Under the pieces are notes generated by a model. The model made no database searches and was not told where the DNA came from. It saw only the letters and a program-made list of their open reading frames with translations. The position numbers and the translations under genes are program-made. Positions 110 to 32,412 of a stretch of DNA of 52,524 nucleotides are shown in pieces. Position 1 is the stretch's first letter. The number at the start of each line of letters is the position of its first letter. The DNA comes from an uncultured Bacteroidota bacterium (GTDB taxonomy: Bacteria; Bacteroidota; Bacteroidia; Bacteroidales; GWA2-32-17): contig CAIQJL010000224.1 of the NCBI GenBank assembly GCA_903872185.1, positions 1-52,524 of the forward strand. Direction: 5' to 3'.

Positions 110-138
110 GCCGCTTCAGAAATGAGGCGGCTTTTTTT
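110..138 (+). terminator. Rho-independent terminator after the partial T9SS protein
   Basis: The stem GCCGCTTCA (110-118) pairs with TGAGGCGGC (123-131), 9 bp with one G-U pair. The loop is a GAAA tetraloop and seven T follow. It lies between the convergent ends of the partial plus-strand gene and selB. The T-run lies only on the plus-strand side, so it serves the plus-strand transcript. Confidence 0.9.
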
Positions 139-2056
139 ATTTCTTTAAATAAATCTGAACCTTAATGCCGGAATTCTGTGTTACAATTATTTTTTGAGCT
201 TCATATATAGCAATAAGTATTGGTGCTAGTCTCTTTGAAACTCCTGTCTTTTGTCTAAATTCACTTATTTCTATTCTGTTTTCATTTGTTTTTAACTCGT
301 TTAATAAAAATGATTTATATTTTGTTGCAATTTCATAATGTACATAATCATTTTTAAAAAGAATTAGTTTGTTTTGCCCGGTTAAATAATGCAAATATTT
401 TTTTATTTTGTCTTTTGTGATTTTTTTTAATAAAGCACGTTCCTCAATTTCAGACAATGCTGGTTTTTGAACATTGTAATTTAAAAACTCGTTTTCCAAC
501 CAATTAATTTCTTCTATTGTTTTTGTGTCTATTGATTGGCTAAATCCCTTTAAAATCCATGAATTGTTCTTGTTTTCTATCAATTGCTCGTTGTCCATTT
601 TTAGCATCAGGTTTTCTAAATATTCTTTTCCACAAGTAATATTTAACAAGTTAAGTTTCCCTAGTATTTCAATAGATGTTAATCCAATATTAGATAATGT
701 GTTTTCTGTATGAAAAGTTTTTAAAATAGTTATTATTTTATTTCGATAAATGTTGTCATATTCTCTTATAATAATGACATTATTCAATTTAATAATTTCC
801 AGTGGTTGATTATTTATTTGAATTAATACATCATCAGGTTTTAAATTTAATATATCTGAAATATGTTTAATAGTAAAAGGACGAATTTCTTTCTTAAGTT
901 CTATACAAATCAAATCTGTTAAATTATTTTCATTTAAAATGCTTTTTGATAATGAGGATAATGATTCTACAAGCTGAGTAGTTCTCTTTTTATGGTGAAG
1001 CGGAAAAGCATCAATTATATAACCACCACCTATAGTTTTATCGCCAGATGAATTTCTTATAATAAATCTGTCCTTTGTTAATAATGTTGCTGGTTTATCA
1101 AAATGAAACTGTACAATTATGTTTTTTCCATCTTCACTTATTATATGCATCCTTGTTTGGCATTCGAATGTGCCAGAATGAAATGTTACAACCGACCAAT
1201 TTTGTAATTTAAAATTATTGTCAAAAAGTATGATGTTTGCATCAACCATTTTAGTCGGTTCCAATAATTTATCAGAAATTAATGAGCCTCTTTTAATGTC
1301 TTCTTTTTTTATTCCTGTTAATTGAATGGCAGCTCTATCTCCTGCAGTAACTGTATTTACAGTTTGTCCATGTCTTTCTATCGATTTTACTTTGTGTTTG
1401 GAATCTCCAGGTAATAAAAAGATTTCTTGACCGGTATTCAAATTACCATTTGTTACAGTTCCTGTAATAACTGTTCCAATTCCTTTTACTGTAAATGTTC
1501 TGTCAATAAACAATCGAAATACTTCACCTTTATTTTTTTCTTCAATTTGTGGAATTATTTCTTCAATGCTATTTGTTAATTCGCTTAGTCCCTGTCCTGA
1601 AACCGATGAAATGCCTATTATAGGAATATTCTTTAATGGAGTATTATTTAAAAATTCCATTATTTCTAGTTTTGCCATTTCGGCTAATTCTTCATCAACA
1701 AGATCTATTTTAGTTAGTGCAACTATTCCATTTTTAATTCCCAGTGCAGTAATAATATTTACGTGTTCTATTGTTTGAGGCATTATTCCACTATCGGCAG
1801 CTATAACAAGTAACACAAAGTCAATTCCGCAAGCACCGCTTACCATAGTATTTATAAAATCTTTATGCCCAGGAACGTCAATAATTCCAATTGATTCGCC
1901 ACTTGATAAGTTTAAATATGAAAATCCTAAATTGATAGTGATACCTCTTAGTTTTTCTTCTTTATGTGTGTCGCAATCTATGTTTGTAAGCGCCTTAATA
2001 AGTGCAGTCTTGCCATGATCTACATGACCAGCTGTTCCCATTATTAAGTGCTTCAT
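137..2056 (-). CDS. selB: Selenocysteine-specific elongation factor SelB
   Basis: This 639-residue GTPase delivers Sec-tRNA-Sec to the ribosome at UGA codons marked by a SECIS hairpin. The G1 motif GHVDHGKT (10-17), the switch I motif RGITI (37-41), the G3 motif DVPGHKD (60-66) and the G4 motif TKID (about 114-117) are all present. EF-Tu-like beta-barrel domains follow. The long C-terminal half is the region expected to hold the SelB winged-helix domains that bind SECIS RNA. The length is close to E. coli SelB (about 614). The ATG is 5 bases after the selA stop, so the two genes are translationally close and probably one transcript. A complete SECIS-binding half argues that this organism really decodes UGA as Sec and has not just kept a remnant. 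Confidence 0.97.
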   Translation of the reverse strand: MKHLIMGTAGHVDHGKTALIKALTNIDCDTHKEEKLRGITINLGFSYLNLSSGESIGIIDVPGHKDFINTMVSGACGIDFVLLVIAADSGIMPQTIEHVNIITALGIKNGIVALTKIDLVDEELAEMAKLEIMEFLNNTPLKNIPIIGISSVSGQGLSELTNSIEEIIPQIEEKNKGEVFRLFIDRTFTVKGIGTVITGTVTNGNLNTGQEIFLLPGDSKHKVKSIERHGQTVNTVTAGDRAAIQLTGIKKEDIKRGSLISDKLLEPTKMVDANIILFDNNFKLQNWSVVTFHSGTFECQTRMHIISEDGKNIIVQFHFDKPATLLTKDRFIIRNSSGDKTIGGGYIIDAFPLHHKKRTTQLVESLSSLSKSILNENNLTDLICIELKKEIRPFTIKHISDILNLKPDDVLIQINNQPLEIIKLNNVIIIREYDNIYRNKIITILKTFHTENTLSNIGLTSIEILGKLNLLNITCGKEYLENLMLKMDNEQLIENKNNSWILKGFSQSIDTKTIEEINWLENEFLNYNVQKPALSEIEERALLKKITKDKIKKYLHYLTGQNKLILFKNDYVHYEIATKYKSFLLNELKTNENRIEISEFRQKTGVSKRLAPILIAIYEAQKIIVTQNSGIKVQIYLKK

Positions 2057-2061
2057 AAAAT

Positions 2062-3486
2062 TTATTGTTTTGTGTTGAAATATACCTGATTTACAATCAT
2101 TGTTAATTCATCTAGCTCATTTTCGAATATTGTTAACATGTCAAAATAAATATATCCTTTTTTAAGAATTGCCAGTACAGGAATTTGATGTTGTAATAAT
2201 GAATAATGCATATTTTCGGCAAAATCAGAACGTTCTTTATTATTTCCGTTAATTAATAATTTTACCGAAAAGCTTGGTATTTCACCGTCTGGAACGGTTC
2301 CTCCACCTGTTTGACCAATGCTTGAAACAACCTCAGAATTAATATTAAGTTCCTTTAAATTATTTGAAAAATTTTGAGCGATATTTTTAATTTCCTGTGA
2401 TTTTCTGTTAAATGTTTTAAATATAAAATTCTTTTTATTTAAAATATGTTCATTTAAATAATATGTAAATGTAGTTTCAAGTAATGCAATGGTAGTTTTA
2501 CAAACCCTTAAGGCTCTCAATAGCGGTTCTTTTTTAAGTTTGCTTATATATTTCTTTTTCCCAACAATAATACCAGCTTGAGGTCCTCCTAAAAGTTTGT
2601 CGCCACTAAAACAAATTAAATCAACTCCTTTTTTTATCGAATCTTTAACAGTAGGTTCTTCTAATAAAAATTTATTCGAGTTCTTTTGCAAAAGACCAGA
2701 ACCTAGATCATATATTATTGGAATTTTATTTTTTTTACCAAGTAAAACTAAGTCTTCTAATTGCACATCTTTAGTAAATCCAGTAATCTGATAATTTGAT
2801 TTATGTGCTTTAAAAAGTATTGCTGTATTATTATTTATTGCTTTTTTGTAGTCTTCAATATTTGTTTTGTTTGTTGTTCCCACTTCTACCATTTTACAAT
2901 CAGAAGTAGCCATGATATCTGGAATTCTAAATGATCCGCCTATCTCAATTAATTCGCCTCTAGAAACAATTACTTCTTTATCTTTCGCAAATGTTCTTAG
3001 TAAAAGCATTACTGCTGCAGCGTTATTGTTTACTATTATTGCATCTTCAGCTCCTGTTATATGTTTTAGTAATTCGGTTGCATGGTCATTTCTGTTCCCC
3101 CTTGAACCTTTTTGTAAGTTAAATTCTAAATTGTTATAGCCTTTTAAAACGTCAAATGAATCTTTAATTAAATCATCACCAAATGGTGTTCTTCCAAGAT
3201 TAGTATGAATAATTATACCAGTTGCATTAATTACTTTTCTTAAACTTTTATTGCTTTTTAAACTTATTGTATTTTTTATCTTATTAATAATTTCATCAAT
3301 GGATGGAGACAGATTTCCATTTATTATTTCTGATCTGAAGAAATTCAATGAACTTTTAATTGAAAACAAAACAATCTCTCGCCCATATACATTTGATAAA
3401 ACTTTAACTTCGGCAATATTAAGTAATTTATTTACTGAAGGTAAATTTTTATACTCAGCACTTTTATTTTCACTAATATTTGTCAA
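2062..3486 (-). CDS. selA: L-seryl-tRNA(Sec) selenium transferase SelA
   Basis: SelA is a PLP enzyme that converts Ser-tRNA-Sec to Sec-tRNA-Sec using selenophosphate. The protein has 474 residues, the usual length. The PLP-lysine motif FSGDKLLGGPQAG is intact with Lys at about 297. The upstream motifs NATGIIIHTNLGRTP and NNNAAAVMLLL are typical of the bacterial decameric enzyme. The gene starts just downstream of the tRNA-Sec gene on the same strand and is followed 5 bases later by selB, giving the order selC-selA-selB. The selenophosphate donor needs SelD, which is not in the window. No frameshift or missing key residue was seen. Confidence 0.97.
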   Translation of the reverse strand: MTNISENKSAEYKNLPSVNKLLNIAEVKVLSNVYGREIVLFSIKSSLNFFRSEIINGNLSPSIDEIINKIKNTISLKSNKSLRKVINATGIIIHTNLGRTPFGDDLIKDSFDVLKGYNNLEFNLQKGSRGNRNDHATELLKHITGAEDAIIVNNNAAAVMLLLRTFAKDKEVIVSRGELIEIGGSFRIPDIMATSDCKMVEVGTTNKTNIEDYKKAINNNTAILFKAHKSNYQITGFTKDVQLEDLVLLGKKNKIPIIYDLGSGLLQKNSNKFLLEEPTVKDSIKKGVDLICFSGDKLLGGPQAGIIVGKKKYISKLKKEPLLRALRVCKTTIALLETTFTYYLNEHILNKKNFIFKTFNRKSQEIKNIAQNFSNNLKELNINSEVVSSIGQTGGGTVPDGEIPSFSVKLLINGNNKERSDFAENMHYSLLQHQIPVLAILKKGYIYFDMLTIFENELDELTMIVNQVYFNTKQ

Positions 3487-3504
3487 TAGAATAAAATTTA
3501 GTTG

Positions 3505-3596
3505 CAGAGAAGGCAGGAATCGAACCTGCCACAGCCGGTTTTATCCGTCTGCTACCGGTGTTGAAGACCGGATGGCACACCAGTACCTTCCTCTCT
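3505..3596 (-). tRNA. selC: Selenocysteine tRNA, anticodon TCA
   Basis: The minus strand folds as a tRNA. The anticodon arm is CCGGT-CTTCAAC-ACCGG, giving anticodon TCA, which reads UGA. There is a long variable arm (about GCAGACGG/CCGGCTGT with one mismatch), and the T arm is GCAGG-TTCGATT-CCTGC. The D arm starts GGTAC and is longer than usual, as in other tRNA-Sec. The acceptor pairs as AGAGAGG/CTTCTCT, 7 bp with one G-U, which leaves the conserved discriminator G at 3505. An eighth pair would have to be U3597-G3505, leaving C as discriminator. CCA is not encoded (CAA follows). It lies directly upstream of selA. Identity is certain; the ends are uncertain by one base. Confidence 0.95.
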
Positions 3597-3653
3597 ATTT
3601 TTAAAAACATTCAATTATAGTTAAAAAAAATGAATTTTGAAAATATCACAAAT

Positions 3654-3690
3654 AAAAAAATCGTATAAATATTATTTTATACGATTTTTA
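3654..3690 (-). terminator. Terminator between the selenoprotein candidate and selC
   Basis: A perfect 14-bp inverted repeat, AAAAATCGTATAAA (3656-3669) and TTTATACGATTTTT (3676-3689), has a 6-base loop. On the minus strand it is followed by more T. It lies 22 bases after the stop of the large secreted protein and about 60 bases before tRNA-Sec. This suggests the sel genes have their own promoter in that short gap, or receive limited read-through. Confidence 0.85.
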
Positions 3691-3711: not shown

Positions 3712-6700
3712 TTATCTAATTAAACTAACTGATCCTGATTTTTCGTGTGAGATTCCATTTGTGTCTTTGTAGTTTACAAGCCATGTATAAACTCCAATCT
3801 GAGCAATTGATTTGTTTTTGGTAGTTCCGTCCCAAGAATATTGACTTGGATTTTCAGGATTAAAAGATGTTGTTTCGAAAATAATTTCACCCCATCTATC
3901 GTAAATATAAAGATGAAAATCTTTAGAACTAATATTCGATCCAGTTATATAAAATACTTCATTTGTGCCATCGTTATCTGGTGTAATTGCATTTGGAGCA
4001 TAAATGGTATATTCTTCAACAACAGAAACTGTATATGATGCAGTATCGCGACATCCATTGGCTGATTCAACAACTAAATTGGTGTTGTAATTTCCAACTG
4101 CAGGAAATTTATGAAATGGGCTTGCAGAAATTGAAGAATCTCCATCGCCAAACATCCAGAAATTTGTTATATTAAGTTCTGAAAGATTATTAAAATGAAT
4201 CATAGGATTTAGAATGCTTACTGTTGGCGGATTTGGAATAAATGAAGCATGTGGTTTGGGGTATACTTCAATTAAATTATTAAATGTGATTGTATTTTTA
4301 CAACCGGTGGAATCGGTTACCGTAAGCGAAACAGTATATTGTCCGTCGTTAGTGAAAATATGATTAGGATTTGATAGATAAGATAATGTATTGTTTTGGT
4401 TATCTCCAAAATTCCATAAGTATTCTCTTATATCATTATCTCCCCATGAGGTAAAGTTAACAACGTGTGGCTCACAACCTGCAGAACTATCTGGTTGGAA
4501 ATTTACAAACGGAGCAGACATTACATGAACACTTACCTGATCACAAACTTGTGGAGATGAACATGCATCTTTTAAACAAATTTCAATTGATTGTGAAGCG
4601 GGAGGATAATAAGAATAAGGTAATGAAATAATCTCTCCTCCAGTTGTTGTTAGTGTGTAAGGAGATCCTACACCGCCTGAATATAAACCAGAAATAATAA
4701 TTGGCTCTCCCAAACAAACTACATTACTAGATGAAGTTAATGAGAGTTTAAGGGAATCAAAAACAAAAACAGTTACTTCCTTTGGAGTTGCAGGACAATT
4801 GTTTGCATCCATTACAGAAACGGTATAATTTGAAGTTTGAGTAGGTGTAACTAATATGCTATTTGTTATTACTCCGTTACTCCATAAATATTGATATGGC
4901 GAATTACCACCTGTTACTGATGCCATAACTGTTGCACTTTGATCAATACAAATATGAGGATCAGGAGTAGCTCCAATAACAACATTGTTTGGTTGAAAAA
5001 CTTCAATCTCCTTAGTTTTAGAACAAGATTTTGCATTTGTTACTGTTATTGTATACATTCCAGCTGATAAGGAACTCAAATCTTGTGAAGCCTGACCGTT
5101 ACTCCAGGAATAAGTACATGGCTGACTTTCTGTATTAACAGATACATCAATAGCTCCATCGGTATATTCATAACAACTTGCATTAGTAACAATTTCTGAA
5201 ATAGCTATTTGAGAAAAAATAATATTTATTTCATCAACAGCAGTACATAAGCCGTTTGAAACGGTAACATAATATATACCTGTTGCGTTTACACTTAATG
5301 TTTGGTTAACCGAGCCATTGCTCCATAAATATGTTAGTCCGGCATTTCCTGCATCTAAAATATAAGGATCGCTAGAATTACAAAATACTTTATCGCTTCC
5401 TAAATTAACAACAGGCGCAACAATAGCAGTTAATGCAACTGAAGTATCCCAAACGCAACCCACAGCGTCAACAATTGTGTATGTGTAATCAAATACACCT
5501 GCTGTTGGTGGATTAACAGTTAAATTTGTTGGTGTCTGGTTTATAATATATGGCCCGCTTGTCCAGCCTTGTGTTGCAATTGGAATAGTATATTCCCAAA
5601 TACTTGGAGAAATTAAAGGATTAAATTCTATTTCCCAAGAGAAAATAAATCCATTATCACTTGCCCAGTTATCTGAAACATTAATTGACCAAAGTCCATT
5701 AAGTGGACAACCTACTAGGTCAGCAAAGCTTTGGTAGGGAGAATAATCACCCGGTGGTACCGCTCCCAAAGCTGCTTCAGCAACCATAGTTCCATAAACA
5801 GGTGTTGGACTCCAGCAATATGTAGCACCAGTACCCGGATCTAATATTGCATCATCGTCGATAGGTGTTCCTAAGAATTGACCGCCTCCTCCAGGGTATT
5901 CTTTTAAAATAATTGTTTGTCCATTCGGGCATGTTAATGATATTTCAAGATCACCTAAAAATGAATGTTCCATATTTGCACAAATACCAACTATATCCCA
6001 AGCATTTTGTAATGTTTGTCCCGGAGCAAAACAATTAAATGTTACGCCAGTGGTATATGAAACGCCTGTTCCATCAGGTAAGAAAGTTGTATCGTTAACG
6101 CCTAAGCTAACATCTATTTCCTGGTGAAATGGATCTCCAACAATAGATACATCTGGATTTGTTGCACCCGCAAAAATTAGGTTTGCTGTATCGTTTGCAC
6201 AAATATTTGGTGGGGATACTATATCCTGAAATGGATTTCCAGCAGTAATTACTCTTGTATCTATACTATTGGTACTAGTACATCCGTGAATATCTGTAAT
6301 TTCTAAATATACTGTGTAACCTCCTGGTTGAGCATATGTATGATTAACAACAGGACCTGTTGCTGTGGCGCCATCACCGAAATACCAGTTATAAACAGAA
6401 GTATTATCATTTTGATTATAAACAAAATTATTTTGCGGATAAGTAGAATTGCCTACAAAATGTATAGATGAACCAGGGCAAATTGCAATGTATCCGGTAT
6501 CTGGACCTGGACTAGTTAGCATTGTGTTAAGATTTGCTAGAACATTCTGACAAACCTGATGACAACTTACTAAAGCATGCCAACCATCACTTTCATCTGA
6601 ACCATTAGAATAAAAATGAACTGTTAAACATCCTGATACATTTGTAAGTGATGCACGAACTGGAATTAAATCTAATAATGGAGTTAAGCTATTATTATAC

Positions 6701-7023
6701 TTTCCAATTAATGGTGAACTTGTGTTTGGTCCATCATATATATATAATGTATCAGAAGGCATAATATGAGTATATGCAAAATACAATTGTATATGTGTAT
6801 TTACTGCATCATTCGAACAGAATGTAACAGTAGCATTTTGATTTGACGAGTAGCCACTCGTCGGAGGTTGGCCTCAGCAATGCTCGGCGTGACCGCCGTC
6901 ATCGTCGAATGTGCCCGTACAAGTAGAAATTGTTTGACCATTTACCTGATCCATTTCATATATCTGAGCTTTTGCAAGTCCAAAAATGGATATAAGGGCT
7001 ATAAAACAAAATAGTTTTTTCAT
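3712..7023 (-). CDS. Candidate secreted selenoprotein: CUB-like/PKD/SprB multidomain protein with type B T9SS sorting domain and in-frame TGA (Sec50)
   Basis: From ATG at 7023 the frame encodes a signal peptide (1-19, ending LAKA) and the first strand of a CUB-like domain (TCTGTF, 34-39). Codon 50 (6876-6874) is TGA. The same frame then stays open to TAA at 3712-3714, giving 1103 residues if TGA is read as Sec. After the TGA come the rest of the CUB-like domain (GYSSNQNATVTFC, then LYIYDGPNTSSPL), a PKD domain (about 175-260), a proprotein-convertase-P-like domain (about 325-465), Ig-like and SprB-type repeats (about 540-675), two PKD domains (about 845-1000) and a gliding-motility type B sorting domain (1004-1103, ending GSVSLIR). 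The segment after the TGA has no signal peptide of its own. The context is HCUGQ, a vicinal Cys-Sec pair. A SECIS-like hairpin follows, and selC-selA-selB lie immediately downstream. The domains and the TGA are seen; Sec insertion is inferred. The alternative is a nonsense pseudogene. Function is unknown. Confidence 0.82.
6845..6876 (-). promoter_or_regulatory. Candidate bacterial SECIS element with its UGA codon
   Basis: On the minus strand TGA (6876-6874) is followed by 11 bases (6873-6863). Then comes a perfect 7-bp stem GACGAGT (6862-6856) / ACTCGTC (6851-6845) closing the loop GGCT. If the weak top T-A pair opens, the loop is TGGCTA, which like the E. coli fdhF loop AGGUCU has GG at positions 2-3. 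The 11-base spacing and the G at the loop start match what is known of bacterial SECIS elements. There is no bulged U in the stem as in fdhF. SelB binding is inferred. Confidence 0.8.
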
Positions 7024-7600
7024 ATTATTTTTCAATTAACTCTGTTTAGACGTAAAATTTTAATTTTAGTTGCCTTATTTTTTATTAAATTAGTGTCTAT
7101 TTTTTTTTAGATAAAACACAAATTATAACTATATGATTATTAGGAAATTTAAATCAGATGCTTTTTCAATATTTTTTTATTAATAATCATCAAAAAATAA
7201 AATTATTTTTAAGCTTTTATTCAATATTATTTTGTCTTAATTTTTTTGCTTGAAAATCAATTAAAATTTTATAATTTATTATTATATGTTTTTATTTCAA
7301 TGCTATACCAAAATTACCCACTTCCAAACCATCTTTTTAACAATCTATTGTTAAAAAATCATTAAGCGCATGAATATATGTTAAATATCTATGTTAGTTT
7401 TTTTTGCAAGAAGATTTAAAAAATTACTCAACTAGCTTTCAATATGGGTGTTATGTTATAATTTGGCTTATTGTTAATAATCGTGTTGAAAAGTAGATTC
7501 GTAAAAAGAGTAAGAGTGATATATATTGCAATACTCAAATCAAAAGACGATTTGTGTTATTATCCAACAAGTTACACATTCAAAGAAAACCAAACAACAA
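7024..7600. other. AT-rich intergenic region between divergent genes
   Basis: This stretch separates the selenoprotein candidate (minus) from the ribonucleotide reductase (plus) and must hold both promoters. It is very AT-rich with many T- and A-runs. I found no cobalamin riboswitch elements and no further reading frame or tRNA. The only clear structure is the palindrome at 7334-7357. Confidence 0.6.
7334..7357. promoter_or_regulatory. Perfect 10-bp palindrome, possible operator
   Basis: TTTTTAACAA (7334-7343) and TTGTTAAAAA (7348-7357) are separated by TCTA. The site lies about 245 bases before the reductase start codon. Neither strand has a following T-run convincing enough for a terminator, so a dimeric repressor site is possible. 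The regulator is unknown. Confidence 0.35.
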
Positions 7601-10180
7601 ATGTTTGTAGAAGAAATGTCAGTTAAACAAAAGACTTCCAGTGAAGTAAATCAAATCACTTATGAGTTTGATGAATCTTTCCAATCAGCGCTTGAGTATT
7701 TCAGGGGCGATGAGCTAGCTGCAAAAGTATGGGCAAATAAATATGCCTTGAAAGATTCATATGGGAAAATATATGAAAAAAATCCCGATGAAATGCATTG
7801 GCGTATTGCACGTGAAATAGCACGTATAGAAGCAAGGTACCCGAACCCATTAAATGTGGATGAGGTATATGAATTATTGCGTGATTTTAAATATATCGTA
7901 CCACAAGGTAGTCCGATGACAGGAATTGGTAACCATTTTCAAATTGCATCCCTTTCTAACTGCTTTGTTATTGGACTAGATGGGCCAAGTGACTCTTATG
8001 GTGGTATATTAAAAATTGATGAAGAGCAGGTTCAGTTAATGAAACGTCGTGGTGGAGTGGGCCACGATTTAAGTCATATTCGTCCAGGCGGAAGTCCAGT
8101 ATTGAATAGTGCGTTAAGCTCAACAGGTATTGTCCCATTTATGGAGCGTTATAGTAACTCAACCCGTGAAGTTGCTCAGGACGGTCGTCGTGGCGCGCTT
8201 ATGCTTAGCATATCAATAAAACACCCAGATGCAGAAAATTTTATAAATGCAAAACTCGAACAGGGAAAAGTTACCGGAGCAAATGTTTCGGTAAAAATAG
8301 ATGATGAGTTTATGTTGGCTGTTATTGAAAGTAAAACTTATACTCAACAATATCCAGTAGAAAGTGCAAATCCAACCACAACAAAGGAAATTGATGCACG
8401 CTCGCTTTGGAAAAAAATTATTCATAATGCGTGGAAATCGGCTGAACCAGGTGTTTTATTCTGGGACACAATTATTCGTGAATCCGTTCCAGATAGCTAT
8501 TCAGATTTAGGATTTAAAACTGTTTCAACAAATCCTTGTGGTGAAATTCCATTATGCCCATATGATAGTTGCAGGTTGTTAGCAATTAATCTTTATGGTT
8601 ATGTTGAAAACCCATTTACTAAAGAAGCTAAATTTAATTTTGATTTATTTAAAAAACATGTTCATCATGCTCAACGCATAATGGACGATATTATCGATCT
8701 TGAATTAGAAAAAGTTGATGCGATACTTAAGAAAGTAAATTCAGATCCTGAAATAGATGAAACTAAAAGAGTAGAGTCACAACTTTGGGAAAAAATTAAA
8801 ATTAAAGCTCTTGAAGGTCGTCGCACTGGTATTGGTATAACCGCAGAAGGAGATATGTTAGCAGCTCTTGGTTTACGTTATGGAACTGACGAAGCAACTG
8901 ACTTTTCTGTTGAAGTTCATAAAACTCTTGCTATAGAGGCTTACCGTTCATCAGTTTCATGTGCTAAAGAACGTGGTGCCTTTCAAATTTATGATACAGA
9001 ACGTGAAAAAAATAATCCATTTATACAACGTATAAAAGAAGCAGATCCAGGATTATATGAAGATATGGCTAAATACGGACGCCGTAACATTGCTCTCTTA
9101 ACAATAGCCCCAACTGGTACAACAAGTTTAATGACTCAGACAACTTCAGGTATCGAGCCAGTATTTCGTCCGGTTTACAGACGTCGTCGTAAAGTAAATC
9201 CTAATGATAAAGATGTAAAAATAAATTTCACAGATGAACTTGGCGATCACTGGGAAGAATACAATGTATTTCACCACAAATTTGTAACCTGGCTAGAGAT
9301 GAATGGTTACGAATTATTTAAAGTAATGAAATACTCTGAAGAAGAACTTGAAGCATTAATTAAGAAGTCTCCATATTATATGGCAACTTCTAATGATGTA
9401 GACTGGTTGGCAAAAGTACGTATGCAAGGAAGAATTCAAAAATGGGTTGATCATTCAATTAGTGTAACCGTTAACCTTCCAGAAAACGCAAACGAAGATT
9501 TAGTTGCAAACGTTTATCTTACCGGATGGGAAAGTGGATGTAAAGGTTTAACAGTATACCGTGAAGGATCTCGTTCAGGTGTGCTTATTTCTACTGATAA
9601 AAAGAAAGGTAATCAGCCCGACTTACCATTTGAAGTAAAGAAACGTCCACCAGTTCTTACTGCTGATATTGTTCGTTTTAATAACAATAATGAAAAATGG
9701 GTTGCATTTATAGGTGTTTTAGATGGATTACCTTATGAAATTTTTACTGGTATTGACGACGATGAAGTAATACATATTCCAAAATCAATTTCGCATGGTG
9801 TTGTAATAAAGAATAAAGACGAACAGGGAAATACAAGATACGATTTTCAATACATAGATAAGCACGGATATAGAACTACTGTTGAAGGTTTATCACGTAT
9901 GTTCGACAAACAATACTGGAATTATGCAAAATTAATTTCTGGTGTTTTACGTTATGGAATGCCTATAACTGATGTTATTAATTTAGTTGGATCTTTACAA
10001 TTAGATGATGCAAATATTAACACATGGAAAACAGGTGTTGAACGTGCAATAAAAAAATACATTCCTAATGGTGCAAAACCAAAAACAGGAACACAATGTC
10101 CTAATTGCGGTCAGCACGATTTAGTTTATATGGAAGGTTGCCTTACTTGCACCTCCTGCGGATATTCTAAGTGTGGGTAG
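7601..10180 (+). CDS. nrdJ: Adenosylcobalamin-dependent (class II) ribonucleoside-diphosphate/triphosphate reductase
   Basis: The enzyme makes deoxyribonucleotides using a B12-generated thiyl radical and needs no oxygen. Visible motifs are the first redox Cys in SLSNCFVIG, the finger-loop triad STNPCGEIPL (Asn, radical Cys, Glu), APTGTTSLMTQTTSGIEP and a metal-binding-like tail (CPNCG then CTSCGYSKCG). The C-terminal Cys pairs are typical of long NrdJ proteins. The length is 859 residues from ATG 7601. Another ATG lies at 7616, and an in-frame TTG at 7526 would add a poorly conserved-looking 25 residues. I chose 7601 because the family-like sequence begins near there. No cobalamin riboswitch was seen upstream. 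A terminator follows. Confidence 0.93.
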   Translation: MFVEEMSVKQKTSSEVNQITYEFDESFQSALEYFRGDELAAKVWANKYALKDSYGKIYEKNPDEMHWRIAREIARIEARYPNPLNVDEVYELLRDFKYIVPQGSPMTGIGNHFQIASLSNCFVIGLDGPSDSYGGILKIDEEQVQLMKRRGGVGHDLSHIRPGGSPVLNSALSSTGIVPFMERYSNSTREVAQDGRRGALMLSISIKHPDAENFINAKLEQGKVTGANVSVKIDDEFMLAVIESKTYTQQYPVESANPTTTKEIDARSLWKKIIHNAWKSAEPGVLFWDTIIRESVPDSYSDLGFKTVSTNPCGEIPLCPYDSCRLLAINLYGYVENPFTKEAKFNFDLFKKHVHHAQRIMDDIIDLELEKVDAILKKVNSDPEIDETKRVESQLWEKIKIKALEGRRTGIGITAEGDMLAALGLRYGTDEATDFSVEVHKTLAIEAYRSSVSCAKERGAFQIYDTEREKNNPFIQRIKEADPGLYEDMAKYGRRNIALLTIAPTGTTSLMTQTTSGIEPVFRPVYRRRRKVNPNDKDVKINFTDELGDHWEEYNVFHHKFVTWLEMNGYELFKVMKYSEEELEALIKKSPYYMATSNDVDWLAKVRMQGRIQKWVDHSISVTVNLPENANEDLVANVYLTGWESGCKGLTVYREGSRSGVLISTDKKKGNQPDLPFEVKKRPPVLTADIVRFNNNNEKWVAFIGVLDGLPYEIFTGIDDDEVIHIPKSISHGVVIKNKDEQGNTRYDFQYIDKHGYRTTVEGLSRMFDKQYWNYAKLISGVLRYGMPITDVINLVGSLQLDDANINTWKTGVERAIKKYIPNGAKPKTGTQCPNCGQHDLVYMEGCLTCTSCGYSKCG

Positions 10181-17190: not shown

Positions 17191-17661
17191 ATGACCACGT
17201 TTATAGGCGATTATCCTTGTAAAGCAGATTCTAAAGGGCGAATCATGCTTCCTTCTGCCTTTAAAAAACAGATGGGCGGTACTGTTCAGGATAGATTTGT
17301 GGTAAAAAAAGATATTTTCGAAAAGTGCCTAGTTCTATACCCAATGGATGAATGGGAACGTCAAGTAAAAATGTTGCGAAGCCGTATTAATCAGTATAAT
17401 CGTGACCATAATAAGTTCTTGCGTGAATTTTATAAAGGCACTGCTGAAATTGTTTTAGATGCAAACAATAGAATGCTTGTTCCAAGAAGATTGTTGGAAT
17501 GGGCTGGAATCTTAACCGGTGATGTAGTGCTAGCAGGACAGGATGGAAGAATTTTAGTTTTAGATAAAGCAATTTACGAAAGCGGTAGCATGAACGAGGA
17601 TGATTTTGCATCATTAGCTGAAAAAATTCTTGGTGGACCCTTGAACAACATTGAAGAATGA
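17191..17661 (+). CDS. mraZ: Transcriptional regulator / division protein MraZ
   Basis: This 156-residue protein has two AbrB-like SpoVT domains, recognisable by GDYPCKADSKGRIMLPSAF near the N-terminus and VLDANNRMLVPRRLLEWAG in the second half. MraZ forms ring oligomers that bind TGGG repeats and adjust dcw transcription. Such repeats lie just upstream. It opens the cluster, and its TGA overlaps the rsmH ATG by 4 bases. Confidence 0.96.
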   Translation: MTTFIGDYPCKADSKGRIMLPSAFKKQMGGTVQDRFVVKKDIFEKCLVLYPMDEWERQVKMLRSRINQYNRDHNKFLREFYKGTAEIVLDANNRMLVPRRLLEWAGILTGDVVLAGQDGRILVLDKAIYESGSMNEDDFASLAEKILGGPLNNIEE

Positions 17662-18563
17662 CAGAATACCATACCCCCGTTCTTTTAAATGAAAGTATTG
17701 AAGGTTTAAATATCGATCCGGAAGGAATTTATGTCGATTTAACATTTGGCAGTGGAGGACATTCTGGTGAGATTTTAAAAAAATTAAAAGGAGGAAAGTT
17801 AATATCATTCGATCAGGACGAGGAAGCAAAGCAAAATGCAATAAACGATAAACGCTTTGTTTTTGTGCAAGGAAATTTTAGGTTCTTTAAAAATTTTTTA
17901 TTGTATCTGGGATTTGAAAAAGTAAACGGAATATTTGCTGACTTAGGTGTTTCCTCTCATCATTTCGATAAAACCGAAAGAGGTTTTTCTTTCAGAAGCG
18001 AAGGTTTGTTGGATATGAGGATGAACAAATCTGCAAAATTAACAGCAGCTCATCTTGTAAATAATCTTGCAGCCGAAAAACTTTCAAATATTTTTTATGA
18101 ATATGGCGAAATTCGGAATGCTCATCAGGTTGCAGGATTAATAGCAAAAGCCCGTAATATAAAGTCTATTGAAACTACTTTTGACTTATGCAAAGCTCTG
18201 GCTCCACTCACTCCAAAAGGAATTGAACACAAGTTTTTGGCAAAAGTATTTCAGGCATTAAGAATAGAAGTAAATGCGGAAATGGATGCTCTGCGTGAAA
18301 TGTTAGAACAAACTCCAGAAATGATAGTATCGGGTGGCCGATTGGTAATTTTAACATATCACTCATTAGAAGATAGATTAGTAAAAAATTTTATGAGATC
18401 TGGAAATTTTGAAGGTAAAACTGAAAGTGATGTGTTTGGAAATGTTAATGGATTGCCGTTTAAAGTTTTTAATAATAAAGTTATTATACCAAGCGAAACA
18501 GAAATAAATCTTAATTCAAGAGCAAGAAGCGCAAAGCTTAGAATTGCTATTAAAAATGATTGA
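17658..18563 (+). CDS. rsmH: 16S rRNA (cytosine-1402-N4)-methyltransferase RsmH (MraW)
   Basis: This S-adenosylmethionine-dependent enzyme methylates N4 of C1402 in the ribosomal P site. Length is 301 residues, close to the usual 310. The motifs HTPVLLNESIEGL, VDLTFGSGGHSGEIL (SAM loop), DLGVSSHHFD, ERGFSFR and RLVILTYHSLEDRLVK are all present. The start overlaps mraZ by 4 bases and the end overlaps the ftsL-like gene by 8 bases, so expression is tightly coupled to the division cluster. Confidence 0.97.
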   Translation: MTEYHTPVLLNESIEGLNIDPEGIYVDLTFGSGGHSGEILKKLKGGKLISFDQDEEAKQNAINDKRFVFVQGNFRFFKNFLLYLGFEKVNGIFADLGVSSHHFDKTERGFSFRSEGLLDMRMNKSAKLTAAHLVNNLAAEKLSNIFYEYGEIRNAHQVAGLIAKARNIKSIETTFDLCKALAPLTPKGIEHKFLAKVFQALRIEVNAEMDALREMLEQTPEMIVSGGRLVILTYHSLEDRLVKNFMRSGNFEGKTESDVFGNVNGLPFKVFNNKVIIPSETEINLNSRARSAKLRIAIKND

Positions 18564-18972
18564 AGAAAAAGAAAATATTGAAGAAAAAGTAGAGGAAGAA
18601 GTGAATATAAATTCCGAAAATTCTAATAAAAAGGAAGCAGAAGGTACGCGTTCAAATCCTTTTAGAGCTTTTATGGATGGTTCATTGCTTTCCAAAGAAA
18701 TAATAAGGAAACAATTTCCATTTGTGATTTTCTTGTCATTAATTGCAATTGGATTTATTGCAAATCGTTATCAAGCGGAAAAAATTGTTAGAAATACAGA
18801 ATCTCTAAAAATAGAATTAAAAGAATTAAGAGCAGAACAAATTTCGGTAACTTCTGAATTAATGCAGTTAAGCCAACAAAGCGAAGTTGTGAAATTAGTT
18901 ACAACAAATCAACTTGGACTTACAGAATCTGTTGACCCACCAAAAAAAATTATTGTAAAAGTTAAAGAATAA
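18556..18972 (+). CDS. ftsL: FtsL-like cell division protein
   Basis: The 138-residue bitopic membrane protein has an acidic, Glu-rich cytoplasmic N-terminus (1-40), one transmembrane segment (FPFVIFLSLIAIGFIANRY, about 55-73) and a periplasmic heptad-rich coiled coil (LKIELKELRAEQISVTSEL). Sequence similarity within the family is low, so the call rests on topology and position between rsmH and ftsI, where FtsL is always found. I start it at ATG 18556 inside the rsmH end and not at the earlier in-frame TTG 18544. Confidence 0.85.
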   Translation: MIEEKENIEEKVEEEVNINSENSNKKEAEGTRSNPFRAFMDGSLLSKEIIRKQFPFVIFLSLIAIGFIANRYQAEKIVRNTESLKIELKELRAEQISVTSELMQLSQQSEVVKLVTTNQLGLTESVDPPKKIIVKVKE

Positions 18973-21090
18973 ATGGCAGAACTCCGCAAAGACATATTAT
19001 GGCGAATGGCACTTCTTTATATTTTAATGGGAGGTTTTGCTATTCTTATAATGGGGAGAATTCTTTATATACAAATTATTGAAGGAAAACAATGGAAATC
19101 TAAAGCCAATGAGTTAACAAAAAAAGATATTATAATTGAACCAATGCGTGGTGAGATTTATTCTGGTGATGGCAGAGTTTTGGCTAGTTCTGTCCCATTT
19201 TATGAAGTAAGATTTGATACAAAAGCAGAAGGAATAAAAAAAGAATATTTCAAAGCAAATGTTGATTCTTTATCAATTTGTCTAGCAGATCTTTTTAAAG
19301 ATCAAACCGCAGCACAATATAAATCAATGTTAAAACTTGCATGGCAAACCGGTAGTCGATATGAATTAATAAAAAGAAAAGTAACATATTCTGAGCTTAA
19401 AAAAATGAAAAATTTCCCGATTTTTAGATTAGGAAAAAATAAGGGAGGTTTTATAACAATTCAAACTAGTAGAAGAGCAAAGCCATTTGGGATGCTTGCT
19501 TCAAGAACTATTGGATATGTAACAAAGGAAAGAGTAGTTGTTGGAATTGAAGGTGCATTCGATCAATATTTAAGAGGAAAACAAGGTGTAGAATTAATGC
19601 AGAAACTTGCTGGAAATATTTGGATGCCAGTAAATAATGGAAACGAAGTTGAACCACAAGATGGATATGATGTATTTAGTACTATTGATATTAATTTGCA
19701 AGATGTTGCACAAAATGCACTTTTAAAGCAGCTTGTTGCAAACAATGCCGATCATGGTTGTGCTATTTTAATGGAAGTAGAAACTGGCGATATTAAGGCG
19801 ATTGCAAATCTTGAAAAATCAAAAGATGACCCAACAGGATATGCTGATAATTACAATTTTGCAATAGGAGAAAGTTCTGAACCTGGTTCAACTTTTAAGT
19901 TGATTTCTATGTTGGCAGCACTTGAAGAAGGATTTATTGATCTTGATGATACGATAAATACCGGTAATGGTATAACAACGTATTATGGCTCAAAAATGAA
20001 GGATTCACACGAAGGAGGTTATGGGAAAATTTCAGCTAAAACAGTTTTTGCTGTTTCATCAAATGTAGGAGTTTCAAAAATTATTACTCATTATTTTTCA
20101 AAAGAACCACATCGTTTTATAGATAGAATATATAAATTAAAATTAAACGAGAAACTTGGTTTAGATATTAAAGGTGAAGGAACACCATATGTAAAAGATC
20201 CTTCTGATTCAACATGGTCGGGCATTTCACTTCCATGGATTTCTGTAGGGTATGAAATAAGATTAACGCCTCTTCAAATATTAACAGTGTACAATGCTGT
20301 TGCAAATAATGGAAGAATGGTAAAACCAAAACTTGTAAAGTCGTTAAAATTCCGTGGAGAAACTATTAGAGATTATCCCGCAGAAATTATTGTTCCTTCT
20401 ATATGTTCTAGCGAAACGCTAAAGAAACTTAAAATAATGTTAGAATGCGTTGTTGAAAATGGAACAGCAAAAAGCTTAAGAAGCCCATTATATAAAATTG
20501 CAGGAAAAACAGGTACAGCACAGGTAGCAAAAGGAAAAAGCGGATATAAAGATTTAAGTTATAAGGCTTCATTTGTTGGATATTTTCCAGCAGATAATCC
20601 TAAATATAGTTGTATTGTTGTGATTAATGATCCTGATTTTAAAACAACAGGTGCTTACTATGGCGGAGCTGTTGCAGGTCCGGTGTTTAAAGAAATATCC
20701 GATAAAGTTTATGCAACGAGTATTGACATTCATAAGCCATTAAATATTTCTTCAACCTTGGCAGGTAATTTTCCTTTAGCAAAAAACGGAAACAAACAAG
20801 ATGTAGAAAAGATATATAAAACTCTCGGAATTGCAGCCAGAACAACTGCTATAACTTCCGATTGGGTTATGGTAACAGGAAATGAAAAAGGGATAATTCT
20901 TAAAAATACAATTATAAAACCAAATCAGGTACCTAATGTTATTGGGATGGGATTACGTGATGCTTTGTTTTTATTAGAGAATTGTGGTTTACAGGTTAAG
21001 CCAATTGGAAAAGGCACCATTAAATCGCAATCTATACCAGCTGGTACAAAATCATCTAATGGTCAAACAATTTATATTCAATTAGGATAA
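18973..21090 (+). CDS. ftsI: Division transpeptidase FtsI (PBP3) with C-terminal PASTA domain
   Basis: This class B penicillin-binding protein cross-links septal peptidoglycan. The 705 residues show an N-terminal membrane anchor (about 10-32), a dimerisation domain with RGEIYSGDGRVLA, and the transpeptidase domain with SxxK in EPGSTFKL, SxN in SSNVG and KTG in AGKTGTAQ. One PASTA domain (about 650-705, starting VPNVIGMGLRDAL) ends the protein, as is usual in Bacteroidota and Gram-positives but not in E. coli. The ATG directly follows the TAA of the ftsL-like gene. Confidence 0.95.
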   Translation: MAELRKDILWRMALLYILMGGFAILIMGRILYIQIIEGKQWKSKANELTKKDIIIEPMRGEIYSGDGRVLASSVPFYEVRFDTKAEGIKKEYFKANVDSLSICLADLFKDQTAAQYKSMLKLAWQTGSRYELIKRKVTYSELKKMKNFPIFRLGKNKGGFITIQTSRRAKPFGMLASRTIGYVTKERVVVGIEGAFDQYLRGKQGVELMQKLAGNIWMPVNNGNEVEPQDGYDVFSTIDINLQDVAQNALLKQLVANNADHGCAILMEVETGDIKAIANLEKSKDDPTGYADNYNFAIGESSEPGSTFKLISMLAALEEGFIDLDDTINTGNGITTYYGSKMKDSHEGGYGKISAKTVFAVSSNVGVSKIITHYFSKEPHRFIDRIYKLKLNEKLGLDIKGEGTPYVKDPSDSTWSGISLPWISVGYEIRLTPLQILTVYNAVANNGRMVKPKLVKSLKFRGETIRDYPAEIIVPSICSSETLKKLKIMLECVVENGTAKSLRSPLYKIAGKTGTAQVAKGKSGYKDLSYKASFVGYFPADNPKYSCIVVINDPDFKTTGAYYGGAVAGPVFKEISDKVYATSIDIHKPLNISSTLAGNFPLAKNGNKQDVEKIYKTLGIAARTTAITSDWVMVTGNEKGIILKNTIIKPNQVPNVIGMGLRDALFLLENCGLQVKPIGKGTIKSQSIPAGTKSSNGQTIYIQLG

Positions 21091-21091
21091 C

Positions 21092-22552
21092 GTGAAAAAA
21101 TTATCTGAAATATTGCAAAACATTCCAGTAGTCCAAATAATTGGAAACCCTGACGTTCCTGTTTATAGAATTTATATTGATTCACGTTGTATAACAAATA
21201 ACTCAATTTTTATTGCAATTCGAGGCGCACAAGTTGATGGACATAGTTTTATTGAACAAGTAATAAAAGATGGTGCGAAAGCAATAATTTGTGAAGCTAT
21301 TCCAGATGTAATAATGTCAGATGTAACATATGTTCAGGTTAGCGATACTACTTTATTAGCAGGACCTATTGCAGATTCTTATTATGACCACCCTTCATCT
21401 AAATTAAAAGTTGTTGGAATTACCGGAACAAATGGCAAAACAACTATTGCTACTTTGTTATATAAGTTGTATAGAAGAATGGGACAAAGATCAGGGTTAA
21501 TTTCAACAGTTGTAAATTATGTTGACTCAAAATCTTTTGATAGCACACATACAACACCTGATGCAATTCAGATTCATAAGCTAATGTATAAAATGGTTGA
21601 GGCAGATTGTAGATATTGTTTTATGGAAGTAAGTTCACATGCTATTGCTCAACATAGAATTAATGGAATAACTTTTTCAGGTGGTGTATTCACAAATTTA
21701 ACGCATGACCATTTAGATTATCACAAAACATTCGAAGAATATTTATCAGTAAAGAAGAAATTTTTTGATGATTTACCACAGAATACTTTTTCACTCACAA
21801 ATGCTGATGATAAGAATGGAAAAGTAATGACACAAAATACAAAGTCAAAGATTAATACTTATTCACTTCATTCAATGTCTGATTTTAACGCATCAATATT
21901 AGAAAGTCATATTGATGGAATGTTGTTAAATGTTAATGGCATGGAAATGTGGACCAGATTAATTGGAAAATTTAATGCTAGTAACATTTTAGCAATTTAT
22001 TCGACTGCAATTTTACTTGGAGCAGAAAAAGAAAAGGTAATGCTTGAATTAAGCGATTTAACTGCTGTTGATGGCCGCTTTGAATATTTCACATCCGCAG
22101 ATGGATGTACTGCAGTTGTTGATTATGCCCATACACCAGATGCATTAGTAAATGTTTTGCAAACAATAAAACAACTTGTAACGAAAGAGAAAAAAATAAT
22201 AACTGTAGTTGGAGCTGGCGGAAATCGAGATAAAACAAAGCGCCCAATAATGGCTAAAATAAGTGCTGAGTTAAGCGATAAAGTAATTTTAACTTCCGAT
22301 AATCCAAGAAATGAATCAGCTGAAGATATAATTGCAGACATGAAAACGGGACTTGATGCAGAATTATCTAAGAAAGTTCTGACTATTGTTGACAGGAGAG
22401 AAGCAATACGTGCAGCATGTCAATTTGCATCAAAAGGAGATATTATACTAGTTGCAGGAAAAGGGCATGAGACTTATCAGGAAGTAAATGGTGTGAAAAC
22501 ACATTTTGATGACAGGGAAATAGTAAAAGAAATTTTTAACGAAAAGAAATAA
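21092..22552 (+). CDS. murE: UDP-MurNAc-tripeptide synthetase MurE (meso-DAP adding)
   Basis: MurE adds the third amino acid of the peptidoglycan stem peptide using ATP. The 486-residue protein has the P-loop [13 protein letters not shown], the conserved [11 protein letters not shown], and [10 protein letters not shown]. The substrate motif is DNPR (in LTSDNPRNE), which marks meso-diaminopimelate-specific enzymes; lysine-adding MurE differ here. Translation starts with GTG at 21092, one base after the ftsI stop. Confidence 0.96.
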
Positions 22553-22553
22553 T

Positions 22554-23810
22554 ATGCTTTATTACTTATTTTCATATTTAGATAAAATTGACTTCCCTGG
22601 GGCGGGAGTTTTTCATTACATCTCATTCAGGTCTGCAATGGCATTAATAACATCGTTAATAATATCATTGCTTTTTGGAAAGAAGATCATCAATTTTTTA
22701 CAAAAAAAACAAATTGGAGAAGTTGTAAGAGACTTAGGTCTTGAAGGACAGCTTAAAAAACAGGGAACGCCTACAATGGGAGGTATTATCATTCTAGCTT
22801 CTATTATTATTCCTACTTTACTTTTTGCAAAAATACATAATATATATATTATTATTTTACTTGTAACCACTGTTTGGTTAGGTTTAATGGGTTTTCTTGA
22901 TGATTATATAAAAGTATTTAAACATGACAAACAAGGATTAAAAGGAAAATTTAAAATTTTAGGTCAAGTGAGTTTAGGTTTGATATTAGGTCTTACTATT
23001 TATTTTAGTGGGGATATTGTTATTCGTGAAAAAGCAAGTAAAAGTATTGTTGAACCAACAACCGAAATAACAAAATCCACAAACACATTTGAAAGTCGGG
23101 CTGTTTATATGGCTAAAGAAGATATTAAATCAACAAAAACTACAATCCCATTTCTTAAAAATAATGAATTTGATTATAAATATTTTTTATGGTTTTTAAG
23201 TTCTGCCGCAAGAAATCAATGGGTTTGGGTAATTTTTGTTTTAGCTGTTATTTTTATTGTTACGGCAGTTTCTAATGGCGCAAATATGACGGATGGTCTT
23301 GATGGGCTTGCTACCGGAGTTTCTGCCATTATAGGAACCACTCTTGGCATTCTTGCATATGTTTCTGGTAATATAATTTTTGCCGATTACCTTAATATTA
23401 TGTATATTCCATATTCGGGTGAGATGGTAGTTTATGCAAGTGCTTTTATTGGTGCTACAGTTGGGTTTATGTGGTATAATTCATATCCGGCTCAGGTTTT
23501 TATGGGCGATACCGGAAGTCTGGCAATTGGAGGAATTATAGCTGTATTTGCAATCTTAATAAGAAAAGAGATTTTACTTCCAATTCTTTGTGGAATTTTC
23601 TTTGTCGAAAATTTATCTGTTATGATGCAGGTAGGTTATTTTAAATATACAAAACGCAGATTTGGTGAAGGGAAAAGATTATTTAAAATGGCACCACTAC
23701 ATCATCATTATCAAAAGAAAGGTTATGTAGAACCAAAAATAGTTACAAGGTTTTGGATTATTGCAATAATGTTAGCTGTAATAACAATAGTTACATTGAA
23801 ATTGAGATAA
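22554..23810 (+). CDS. mraY: Phospho-MurNAc-pentapeptide translocase MraY
   Basis: This polytopic membrane enzyme makes lipid I from UDP-MurNAc-pentapeptide and undecaprenyl phosphate. It has 418 residues. The conserved [23 protein letters not shown]-like [36 protein letters not shown] and [10 protein letters not shown] motifs are intact. A hydrophilic insertion of about 60 residues (roughly 155-215) lies in an extracytoplasmic loop, making it longer than E. coli MraY (360); such insertions are common in this phylum. Its TAA shares one base with the murD ATG. Confidence 0.96.
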
Positions 23811-25147
23811 TGAAAGAATTAATAGTCATATTAGGAGCAGGTGAAAGCGGAATCGGTTCGGCGGTATTAGCACGCATGAACGGTTTTGACGTTTTCATTA
23901 GTGATAATGGGACTATTAAACCTAAATATAAAGAGCTAATTGAAAAGTATAATCTTCCTTTTGAAGAAGGTGGCCATACTTTAAGTAAAATATTAAGTGC
24001 GGTAGAAATTATTAAAAGCCCTGGAATTCCAGAAAAAGCTGAAATTATTCAAGCAATTCGCAAAAAAGTAATTCCAATTGTTTCTGATATCGAATTTGCA
24101 TCACGATATACAAATGCTAAAACAATTTGCATAACTGGAAGTAATGGAAAAACTACTACAACATTATTGTTATACCATATACTTAAGAAAGCAGGATTAA
24201 ATGTAGGGGTTGCAGGAAACGTTGGGACAAGTTTCGCCTTAGAAGTCGCAGAAAAAAACTTTGAATACTTCGTTCTTGAATTAAGTAGCTATCAACTTGA
24301 TGAGATGCACAAATTCAAAGCTGATATTTCAATACTTTTAAATATAACACCTGATCATTTAGATAGATACAATTATAATTTTCAAAATTATATTGATAGT
24401 AAATTTAGAATAACAAATAACCAGAAGGAAAATGAAACTCTTATTTATTGTTTGGATGATGAAGTAATCGTTAAAGAACTTAAAAAAAGAGATCTGAAAT
24501 CACAACTGATACCCTTTTCAATAAAAGAAGAAATTGAGAATGGTGGTTGTGTAAAAGAAAATGAATTTAAAATAAACCTAAATAATAACCCCTTTAACAT
24601 GTCAATACAAGAATTAGCTTTACAAGGAAAACACAATCAGTACAATTCGTTAGCGGCAGGTATTGCAGCACAATTATTAAGAATTCGCAAAGATGTAATT
24701 CGCGAATGTCTTATGGATTTTCAAGCTGTTGAACACCGATTAGAGAAAGTTCTGAAAGTGCGTGGTGTAGAATTCATAAACGATTCAAAAGCAACGAATG
24801 TAAATTCTACCTGGTATGCATTAGAGAGCATGAAAAAACCATTAGTATGGATTGTTGGTGGTGTTGATAAAGGCAACGACTATAGTCAACTTAGCGAACT
24901 AGTAAAATCAAAAGTAAAGGCAATAGTATGTCTGGGAGCAGATAATTCGAAAATTTTACAAGCATTTGAAGGATTAGATATACCCAAAGTTGAAACAAAA
25001 TCGATGGTTGAAGCAATAAAAACCTCATTTTATCTAGCTCATGACGGAGATGTTGTATTATTATCCCCAGCATGTGCAAGTTTTGATTTGTTTGACAGCT
25101 ACGAAGATCGTGGCAAACAATTTAAAAGAGCAGTAAGAGATTTATAA
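23810..25147 (+). CDS. murD: UDP-MurNAc-alanine--D-glutamate ligase MurD
   Basis: MurD adds D-Glu to UDP-MurNAc-L-Ala. From ATG 23810 the protein has 445 residues and starts directly with the Rossmann-like motif ILGAGESGIGSAVLA. The ATP loop is ITGSNGKTTTT, and NITPDHLDRY, the EHRLEKV segment and NDSKATN follow. An in-frame TTG at 23753 inside mraY would add 19 residues without homology, so it was not used. The one-base stop/start overlap with mraY indicates translational coupling. Confidence 0.96.
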   Translation: MKELIVILGAGESGIGSAVLARMNGFDVFISDNGTIKPKYKELIEKYNLPFEEGGHTLSKILSAVEIIKSPGIPEKAEIIQAIRKKVIPIVSDIEFASRYTNAKTICITGSNGKTTTTLLLYHILKKAGLNVGVAGNVGTSFALEVAEKNFEYFVLELSSYQLDEMHKFKADISILLNITPDHLDRYNYNFQNYIDSKFRITNNQKENETLIYCLDDEVIVKELKKRDLKSQLIPFSIKEEIENGGCVKENEFKINLNNNPFNMSIQELALQGKHNQYNSLAAGIAAQLLRIRKDVIRECLMDFQAVEHRLEKVLKVRGVEFINDSKATNVNSTWYALESMKKPLVWIVGGVDKGNDYSQLSELVKSKVKAIVCLGADNSKILQAFEGLDIPKVETKSMVEAIKTSFYLAHDGDVVLLSPACASFDLFDSYEDRGKQFKRAVRDL

Positions 25148-25158
25148 AATTTGAATTG

Positions 25159-30993: not shown

Positions 30994-31019
30994 ATTAGAA
31001 ACCCTAAAACCCAATAAAT

Positions 31020-32402: not shown

Positions 32403-32412
32403 ATAAAAGATT

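Follow-up and report, generated by a model that had tools for sequence, protein, structure and literature searches.

Selenocysteine (Sec) is the rare 21st amino acid, and the locus described here raises the question of whether a UGA codon near the start of a gene for a large exported protein is read as Sec. The gene lies in a 52,524-nucleotide stretch of DNA from an uncultured Bacteroidota bacterium (hereafter the window). Translation of the minus-strand frame 7023–3712 gave 1103 residues with a single in-frame TGA at codon 50 (6876–6874), followed by 1053 open codons in the same frame, as described in an initial annotation made from the sequence alone. The features of the locus are as follows.

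3712..7023, minus strand: predicted multidomain selenoprotein gene with a T9SS sorting domain (translation, Pfam, NCBIfam)
6967..7023, minus strand: signal peptide, about residues 1–19 (by eye)
6853..6891, minus strand: loop region of the CUB-like domain, about residues 45–57 (alignment, structure model)
6862..6879, minus strand: codons of the invariant C-U-G-Q-P-P, residues 49–54 (seven aligned rows)
6874..6876, minus strand: in-frame TGA, putatively read as selenocysteine, residue 50 (TGA in the same column in 7/7 orthologues)
6845..6862, minus strand: SECIS-like stem-loop GACGAGT-GGCT-ACTCGTC (folding, covariation, synonymous-codon test)
3715..3999, minus strand: CHU_C / T9SS type B sorting domain, residues 1009–1103 (Pfam, NCBIfam)
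3654..3689, minus strand: AT-rich hairpin then T-run between the Sec gene and selC, probable terminator (by eye)
3504..3597, minus strand: selC, tRNA-Sec (ARAGORN, Rfam)
2062..3486, minus strand: selA, selenocysteine synthase (Pfam SelA, 439 bits)
137..2056, minus strand: selB, Sec-specific elongation factor (Pfam SelB-type domains; NCBIfam SelB over cut-off)

The domains run in the order signal peptide, CUB-like domain with the Sec loop, PKD, P-domain-like, SprB repeats, PKD and CHU_C. The PKD, P_proprotein, SprB and CHU_C / T9SS type B domains recognised by Pfam and NCBIfam all lie downstream of the TGA. The initial annotation had argued from a signal peptide present only before the TGA and a T9SS domain present only after it, and this division was confirmed, by eye for the former and by the Pfam CHU_C match for the latter. 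Its further description of a CUB-like domain cut midway by the codon was partly borne out: the TGA does fall inside the domain, but within an inserted loop, and the domain is not simply halved.

Searches of relatives recovered six orthologues that were 45–79% identical to the window protein, with pairwise identities of 44–79% among all seven. This Sec group spans four families of one order, comprising the window gene (row G000), G003 from the same genus, G006 from the same family, and G155, G042, G062 and G390 from three other families. All members of the group aligned across the TGA, which occupied one alignment column inside an invariant C-U-G-Q-P-P motif in 7/7 genes, at codon 50–55 and just past the signal peptide (start codons as chosen for alignment). 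Homologues with either Cys or TGA at this column had been anticipated as support for Sec; TGA was found there throughout the Sec group, and Cys homologues were not seen. Between the window gene and G003 (79% identical), dN/dS was 0.18 for the 49 codons preceding the TGA and 0.14 for the 1052 that follow it, which by this estimate is purifying selection on both sides. Bacterial selenoproteins are recognised by an in-frame UGA that is conserved and flanked on either side by sequence under coding constraint, and this signature is present. Downstream decay, random residues at the column, and TGG or TGT in place of the TGA, each named beforehand as evidence against the proposal, were all absent. 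A nonsense mutation, an assembly or sequencing error or a decaying pseudogene, with the TGA a real stop or an artefact, would account for an otherwise open frame split by a TGA, but this has next to no probability, and a chance stop is likewise ruled out, because the TGA recurs in the same column of six orthologues, in seven genomes down to 44% identity, within an invariant motif and with low dN/dS on either side.

The distribution of this form, and of any Cys version, was examined with a profile carrying Cys at the Sec column in four overlapping draws, from the order (393 genomes, E 1e-22), the class (395, 1e-15), the family of G390 (11, 1e-22) and the phylum (395, 1e-35). The TGA form was present in 5/393 genomes of the order draw at 288–313 bits, the next match scoring 167 bits with no stop. 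It occurred in 3/10 genomes of the window's family and 1/11 of G390's family. Among the matches listed from the 395 genomes of the class draw, the sole TGA form was the window's own gene, as it was in the 395-genome phylum draw at E ≤ 1e-35. No TGA-less match scored as high as the Sec group among the matches listed in these draws, although a distant Cys form could be missed because the E-value limits were strict and only part of the matches was read as loci. A DNA pattern for C-U-G-Q-P-P matched in 13/393 genomes, with about 8 for a reversed control pattern (counted by eye); in five of the 13 the match had a long open frame to either side, and all five belong to this family.

Downstream of the UGA, the window sequence folds into a SECIS-like hairpin with a 7-bp stem and a GGCU loop, the stem starting 11 nt and the apical loop 18 nt after the UGA. 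The Escherichia coli fdhF SECIS, folded as a control, has an upper stem that starts at 11 nt and an apical loop, GGUC, at 18 nt; the two therefore share the stem start, the loop position and an initial GG, but the stem here has no bulged base. The 54-nt window fold had z = -2.23, with 6/200 shuffles as good. Across the seven genes the window helix paired 81.6% of cells, compared with 67.9% in shuffles, and the covariation score was 0.476 compared with 0.181, neither value being reached by any of 500 shuffles. Its register outperformed six slid registers on all measures. Two coarser measures of the five were weaker (33 and 42 of the 500 shuffles did as well), and the test leans towards the helix, since the structure it scored came from the hairpin of the window itself.

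Synonymous variants provided a second test, in which codons were redrawn according to the usage of each gene while the protein stayed unchanged. In 6/7 genes the hairpin was stronger than the variants (p ≤ 0.0275), with p = 0.13 for G155. Fisher's test gave 1.7e-10 over seven rows and 3e-7 over five (G000, G006, G155, G062 and G390), values that are upper bounds on strength because the rows share ancestry and the stretch to be folded was selected once the hairpins were known. When the whole 36 nt was considered, p ≤ 0.01 was obtained in 4/7. The four codons after the TGA were identical in 64/84 row pairs (76%), as against 46% at invariant residues elsewhere, and the second Pro of the motif was CCG in all seven genes.

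Hairpin geometry was scored as an apical loop of 3–9 nt, 16–37 nt from the UGA, on a stem of 4–16 bp. The minimum-energy fold had this geometry in 6/7 genes; that of G155 differs and is ambiguous. At ≤ -5 kcal/mol it was found at 5/7 real sites and at 5.9% of the 8046 control sites taken from these genes. The bSECIS model, as given in the part of PMC13188914 consulted, calls for a G within the first two positions of the apical loop and for an energy of -7.5 kcal/mol or lower. Geometry with the G was seen in 3/7 (G000, G003 and G042), the loop G being absent in G006, G062 and G390, unlike fdhF. Over 42 nt, 5/7 were within the energy limit, and 2/7 (G000 and G003) combined energy with geometry and G. 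Compared with control sites inside these genes, the energy of the hairpin was in the best 5–7% for G003 and G006 and unremarkable for G155 and G390, and the register differs in G006 and G390.

Genes for Sec insertion accompany the interrupted frame. The initial annotation had pointed to adjoining selC, selA and selB, and all three identifications held (tRNA-Sec by both ARAGORN and Rfam, SelA at 439 bits, SelB over the NCBIfam cut-off); the window's own genome contains selB, selC and selD. In a set of 20 genomes, SelB scored over cut-off in 5/7 carriers of the TGA form and 3/13 non-carriers, and tRNA-Sec in 6/7 and 2/13; SelD did so in 7/7 carriers and 3/7 of the non-carriers searched. Neither SelB nor tRNA-Sec was found over cut-off in G042 (95% complete, about 190 contigs), which had SelD only, and no SelB over cut-off was found in G390 (91% complete); these absences are possibly draft-genome gaps. 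Proximity of selC to the Sec gene (within 200 bp) was seen in 3/7 loci in two arrangements, about 110–115 bp downstream in the window and G003 and about 170 bp upstream, divergent, in G390. selC was not on the stretches read around the Sec gene in G006, G155, G042 and G062. We describe this as a neighbourhood and not as one operon because an AT-rich, terminator-like hairpin separates the gene from selC; the Sec gene and selC-selA-selB are probably not co-transcribed as a single operon. A terminator scan requiring G-C pairs did not list this hairpin (3654..3689). A promoter-like match also lies between the Sec gene and selC (3643–3614), though such matches numbered 37 compared with 43.3 expected in shuffles.

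Several further observations concern these genomes. The SelD match of the window's genome contains no TGA. An in-frame TGA interrupts the G062 SelD (C154, L164) close to its start (GAG-U-GCK), with a weak predicted fold downstream (-4.5 kcal/mol); Sec-type SelD is known elsewhere. G004, from the window's genus, has SelB and SelD over cut-off with no tRNA-Sec over cut-off and no TGA form, which may mean that the draft is incomplete there or that Sec use has been lost in part. Elsewhere in the window, the divergent neighbour of the Sec gene (7526–10180, plus strand) is an adenosylcobalamin-dependent ribonucleotide reductase (NrdJ_Z), and an 870-codon open frame similar by eye occupies the same relative place in G003. 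A division and cell wall cluster (17191–32865, plus strand) contains MraW, a PBP transpeptidase, a MurG-like glycosyltransferase and FtsZ by Pfam, its other genes being guessed from size and order only. A two-component regulator propeller protein with Y_Y_Y and histidine kinase domains (Pfam) is encoded at 38938–42147 on the plus strand.

Taken together with its conservation, the UGA at codon 50 is very probably decoded as selenocysteine. Readthrough by a near-cognate or suppressor tRNA, or stimulated by the hairpin, would instead yield small amounts of an extended surface protein that contains no Sec. It would also fit a conserved UGA followed by structure, and the G042 genome, without SelB or tRNA-Sec over cut-off, is in its favour. 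We nevertheless consider it very improbable given tRNA-Sec in 6/7 carriers and SelD in 7/7, the fdhF register of the window hairpin and selC adjacent in three loci. An invariant Cys also directly precedes the UGA, an arrangement shared with several of the listed CU-motif selenoproteins, and the main product of such readthrough, 49 residues long, is unlikely to be useful T9SS cargo. Under Sec decoding, SelB with Sec-tRNA would read UGA 50 under the direction of the stem-loop 11 nt downstream, and the resulting protein of about 1100 residues would exit via the general secretory route and then the type IX secretion system, remaining on or near the cell surface.

Because termination at the UGA leaves only a 49-residue fragment, the full protein would be made only when selenium is available, and selenium-dependent production would follow from the UGA position at codon 50–55. 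The codon might then act chiefly to sense selenium, its early stop gating a costly surface protein by Sec-tRNA supply, with the Sec residue itself unimportant. The early position of the UGA in all seven genes and selC nearby in three loci are consistent with such a gate, which would have no need of the invariant C, G, Q, P and P around the codon. That objection is softened by the possibility that SECIS nucleotide constraint fixes some codons of the motif. On balance we find a purely regulatory role improbable.

The domain that carries this residue was characterised by profile and structure comparison. Pfam PF00431 (CUB) matched the isolated window domain just below cut-off (20.9 compared with 21.4 bits), and two orthologues scored 18.3 and 17.9 bits. 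An AlphaFold model of the CUB-like domain (pLDDT 76, 5-row alignment) gave best Foldseek matches to proteins holding CUB domains, namely neuropilin, PCPE-1 and spermadhesin (best E 4.3e-7, TM about 0.58 by query length). By this structure comparison the predicted domain has the CUB fold, a beta-sandwich. Residues 44–53 were modelled with low confidence, and the Sec loop is probably flexible.

The Cys-Sec pair sits in a 9–11-residue loop inserted into this domain. The loop was present in 7/50 rows aligned to the N-terminal profile and absent from 43 (40 distinct), the 50 rows being matches that became loci and so a part of all matches. Cys replaced Sec in such a loop in none of the 50 rows, and none of the 40 distinct non-Sec relatives aligned had a loop with Cys-Sec. 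When the loop was deleted from the alignment, the seven Sec forms still formed one clade (support 100/96) among 47 distinct rows, and the loop therefore marks a single orthologous group. Homologues that skip the TGA region, which the initial annotation had held to speak against Sec, do exist, but they lack the whole loop and fall outside the Sec clade. Among them are CUB-like surface proteins of the same order that have the N-terminal CUB-like domain in common with the Sec group (G021 C238, locus L005/L135; L058) and have neither loop, Cys-Sec pair nor TGA. L058–L061 are 41–47% identical to the window protein over the CUB-like domain, and the G021 homologue (871 aa in an uninterrupted frame) shares 45% identity with that protein over residues 1–727. 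A genome-contig search returned four relatives, none with a TGA or the loop where aligned, and phage records gave no match.

Most selenoproteins have Cys homologues. We think it fairly likely that Sec was gained here together with a short loop that brought both codon and SECIS into an ordinary extracellular CUB-like domain, giving a Sec-only family with no Cys ancestor and chemistry performed outside the cell on a surface protein.

From the invariant motif we infer that the vicinal Cys and Sec form a reactive site outside the cell. The role most often assigned to Sec is redox. Redox reactions are also thought to be the job of most prokaryotic selenoproteins (PMC9312934, in the part consulted). 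A selenylsulfide/selenolate couple formed by Cys-Sec is our leading, if tentative, suggestion, with a chance a little short of even. If the UGA is indeed read as Sec, the site could instead trap mercury, other soft metals, organometals or an electrophile without being a redox centre. Metal capture keeps some probability because the CU-motif selenoproteins listed in the consulted part of PMC13188914 include proteins of organometal and metal systems (SaoL, SaoB, SaoC, HgcA and MbdU). However, no metal-handling family was found among the six neighbouring proteins scanned, and three Sec-group members had no match to the NCBIfam models of those selenoproteins. We therefore regard a metal trap as unlikely, and as less likely than a redox couple.

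Export of the protein was assessed from its C-terminus. CHU_C scored over cut-off in 7/7 Sec-group proteins, and TIGR04131 (cut-off 35) gave 37.6 bits for the window protein, 36.2 for G390 and 33.9, below cut-off, for G006. The Sec protein is thus probably exported by the T9SS to a surface location. At least 25 matches to it were found in its own genome, many over the C-terminal part, which suggests further T9SS cargo there. A second large protein with SprB, PKD and CHU_C domains and no in-frame TGA is encoded at 47070–51323 of the window (plus strand).

The proposal of a new selenoprotein family was upheld. A 2026 table of 119 prokaryotic selenoprotein families and subfamilies has no CUB or T9SS entry in the part consulted (PMC13188914), and no NCBIfam selenoprotein model matched in the three of the seven Sec-group proteins searched; from these two absences we call the family new. 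The consulted text of PMC13188914 makes no mention of CUB, secreted, Bacteroid, surface or adhesin, extracellular occurring only in a reference title. Literature searches, covering titles and abstract openings, found no CUB, T9SS, gliding-motility or secreted selenoprotein of this kind. The nearest resemblance in motif is to the CU-motif selenoproteins SaoL, SaoB, SaoC, HgcA, MbdU and KCU-star, in which Sec directly follows Cys as it does here; none is given as CUB or T9SS in the part of PMC13188914 consulted, and none matched the three members through NCBIfam. A TonB-dependent receptor of the FCYXU type, described in the consulted part of PMC12013277, is likewise a computationally predicted envelope selenoprotein, but it has a CxxU motif, Cys homologues and a domain unrelated to the CUB-like Sec protein.

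Two features of the family appear unusual: the searches made recovered it in Sec form alone, and its members are predicted to be exported surface proteins. A recent finder retains only those candidates whose top ten matches include either a Sec homologue already known or two or more Cys homologues (PMC12013277, in the part consulted). If our reading is correct, finders that demand Cys or known Sec homologues miss families of this kind, and more may exist. In this family Sec would reside in a modular protein exported to the surface, for which the searches showed no Cys counterpart. The use of selenium outside the cell could then be tested, and with it the display of a large surface protein in dependence on selenium.
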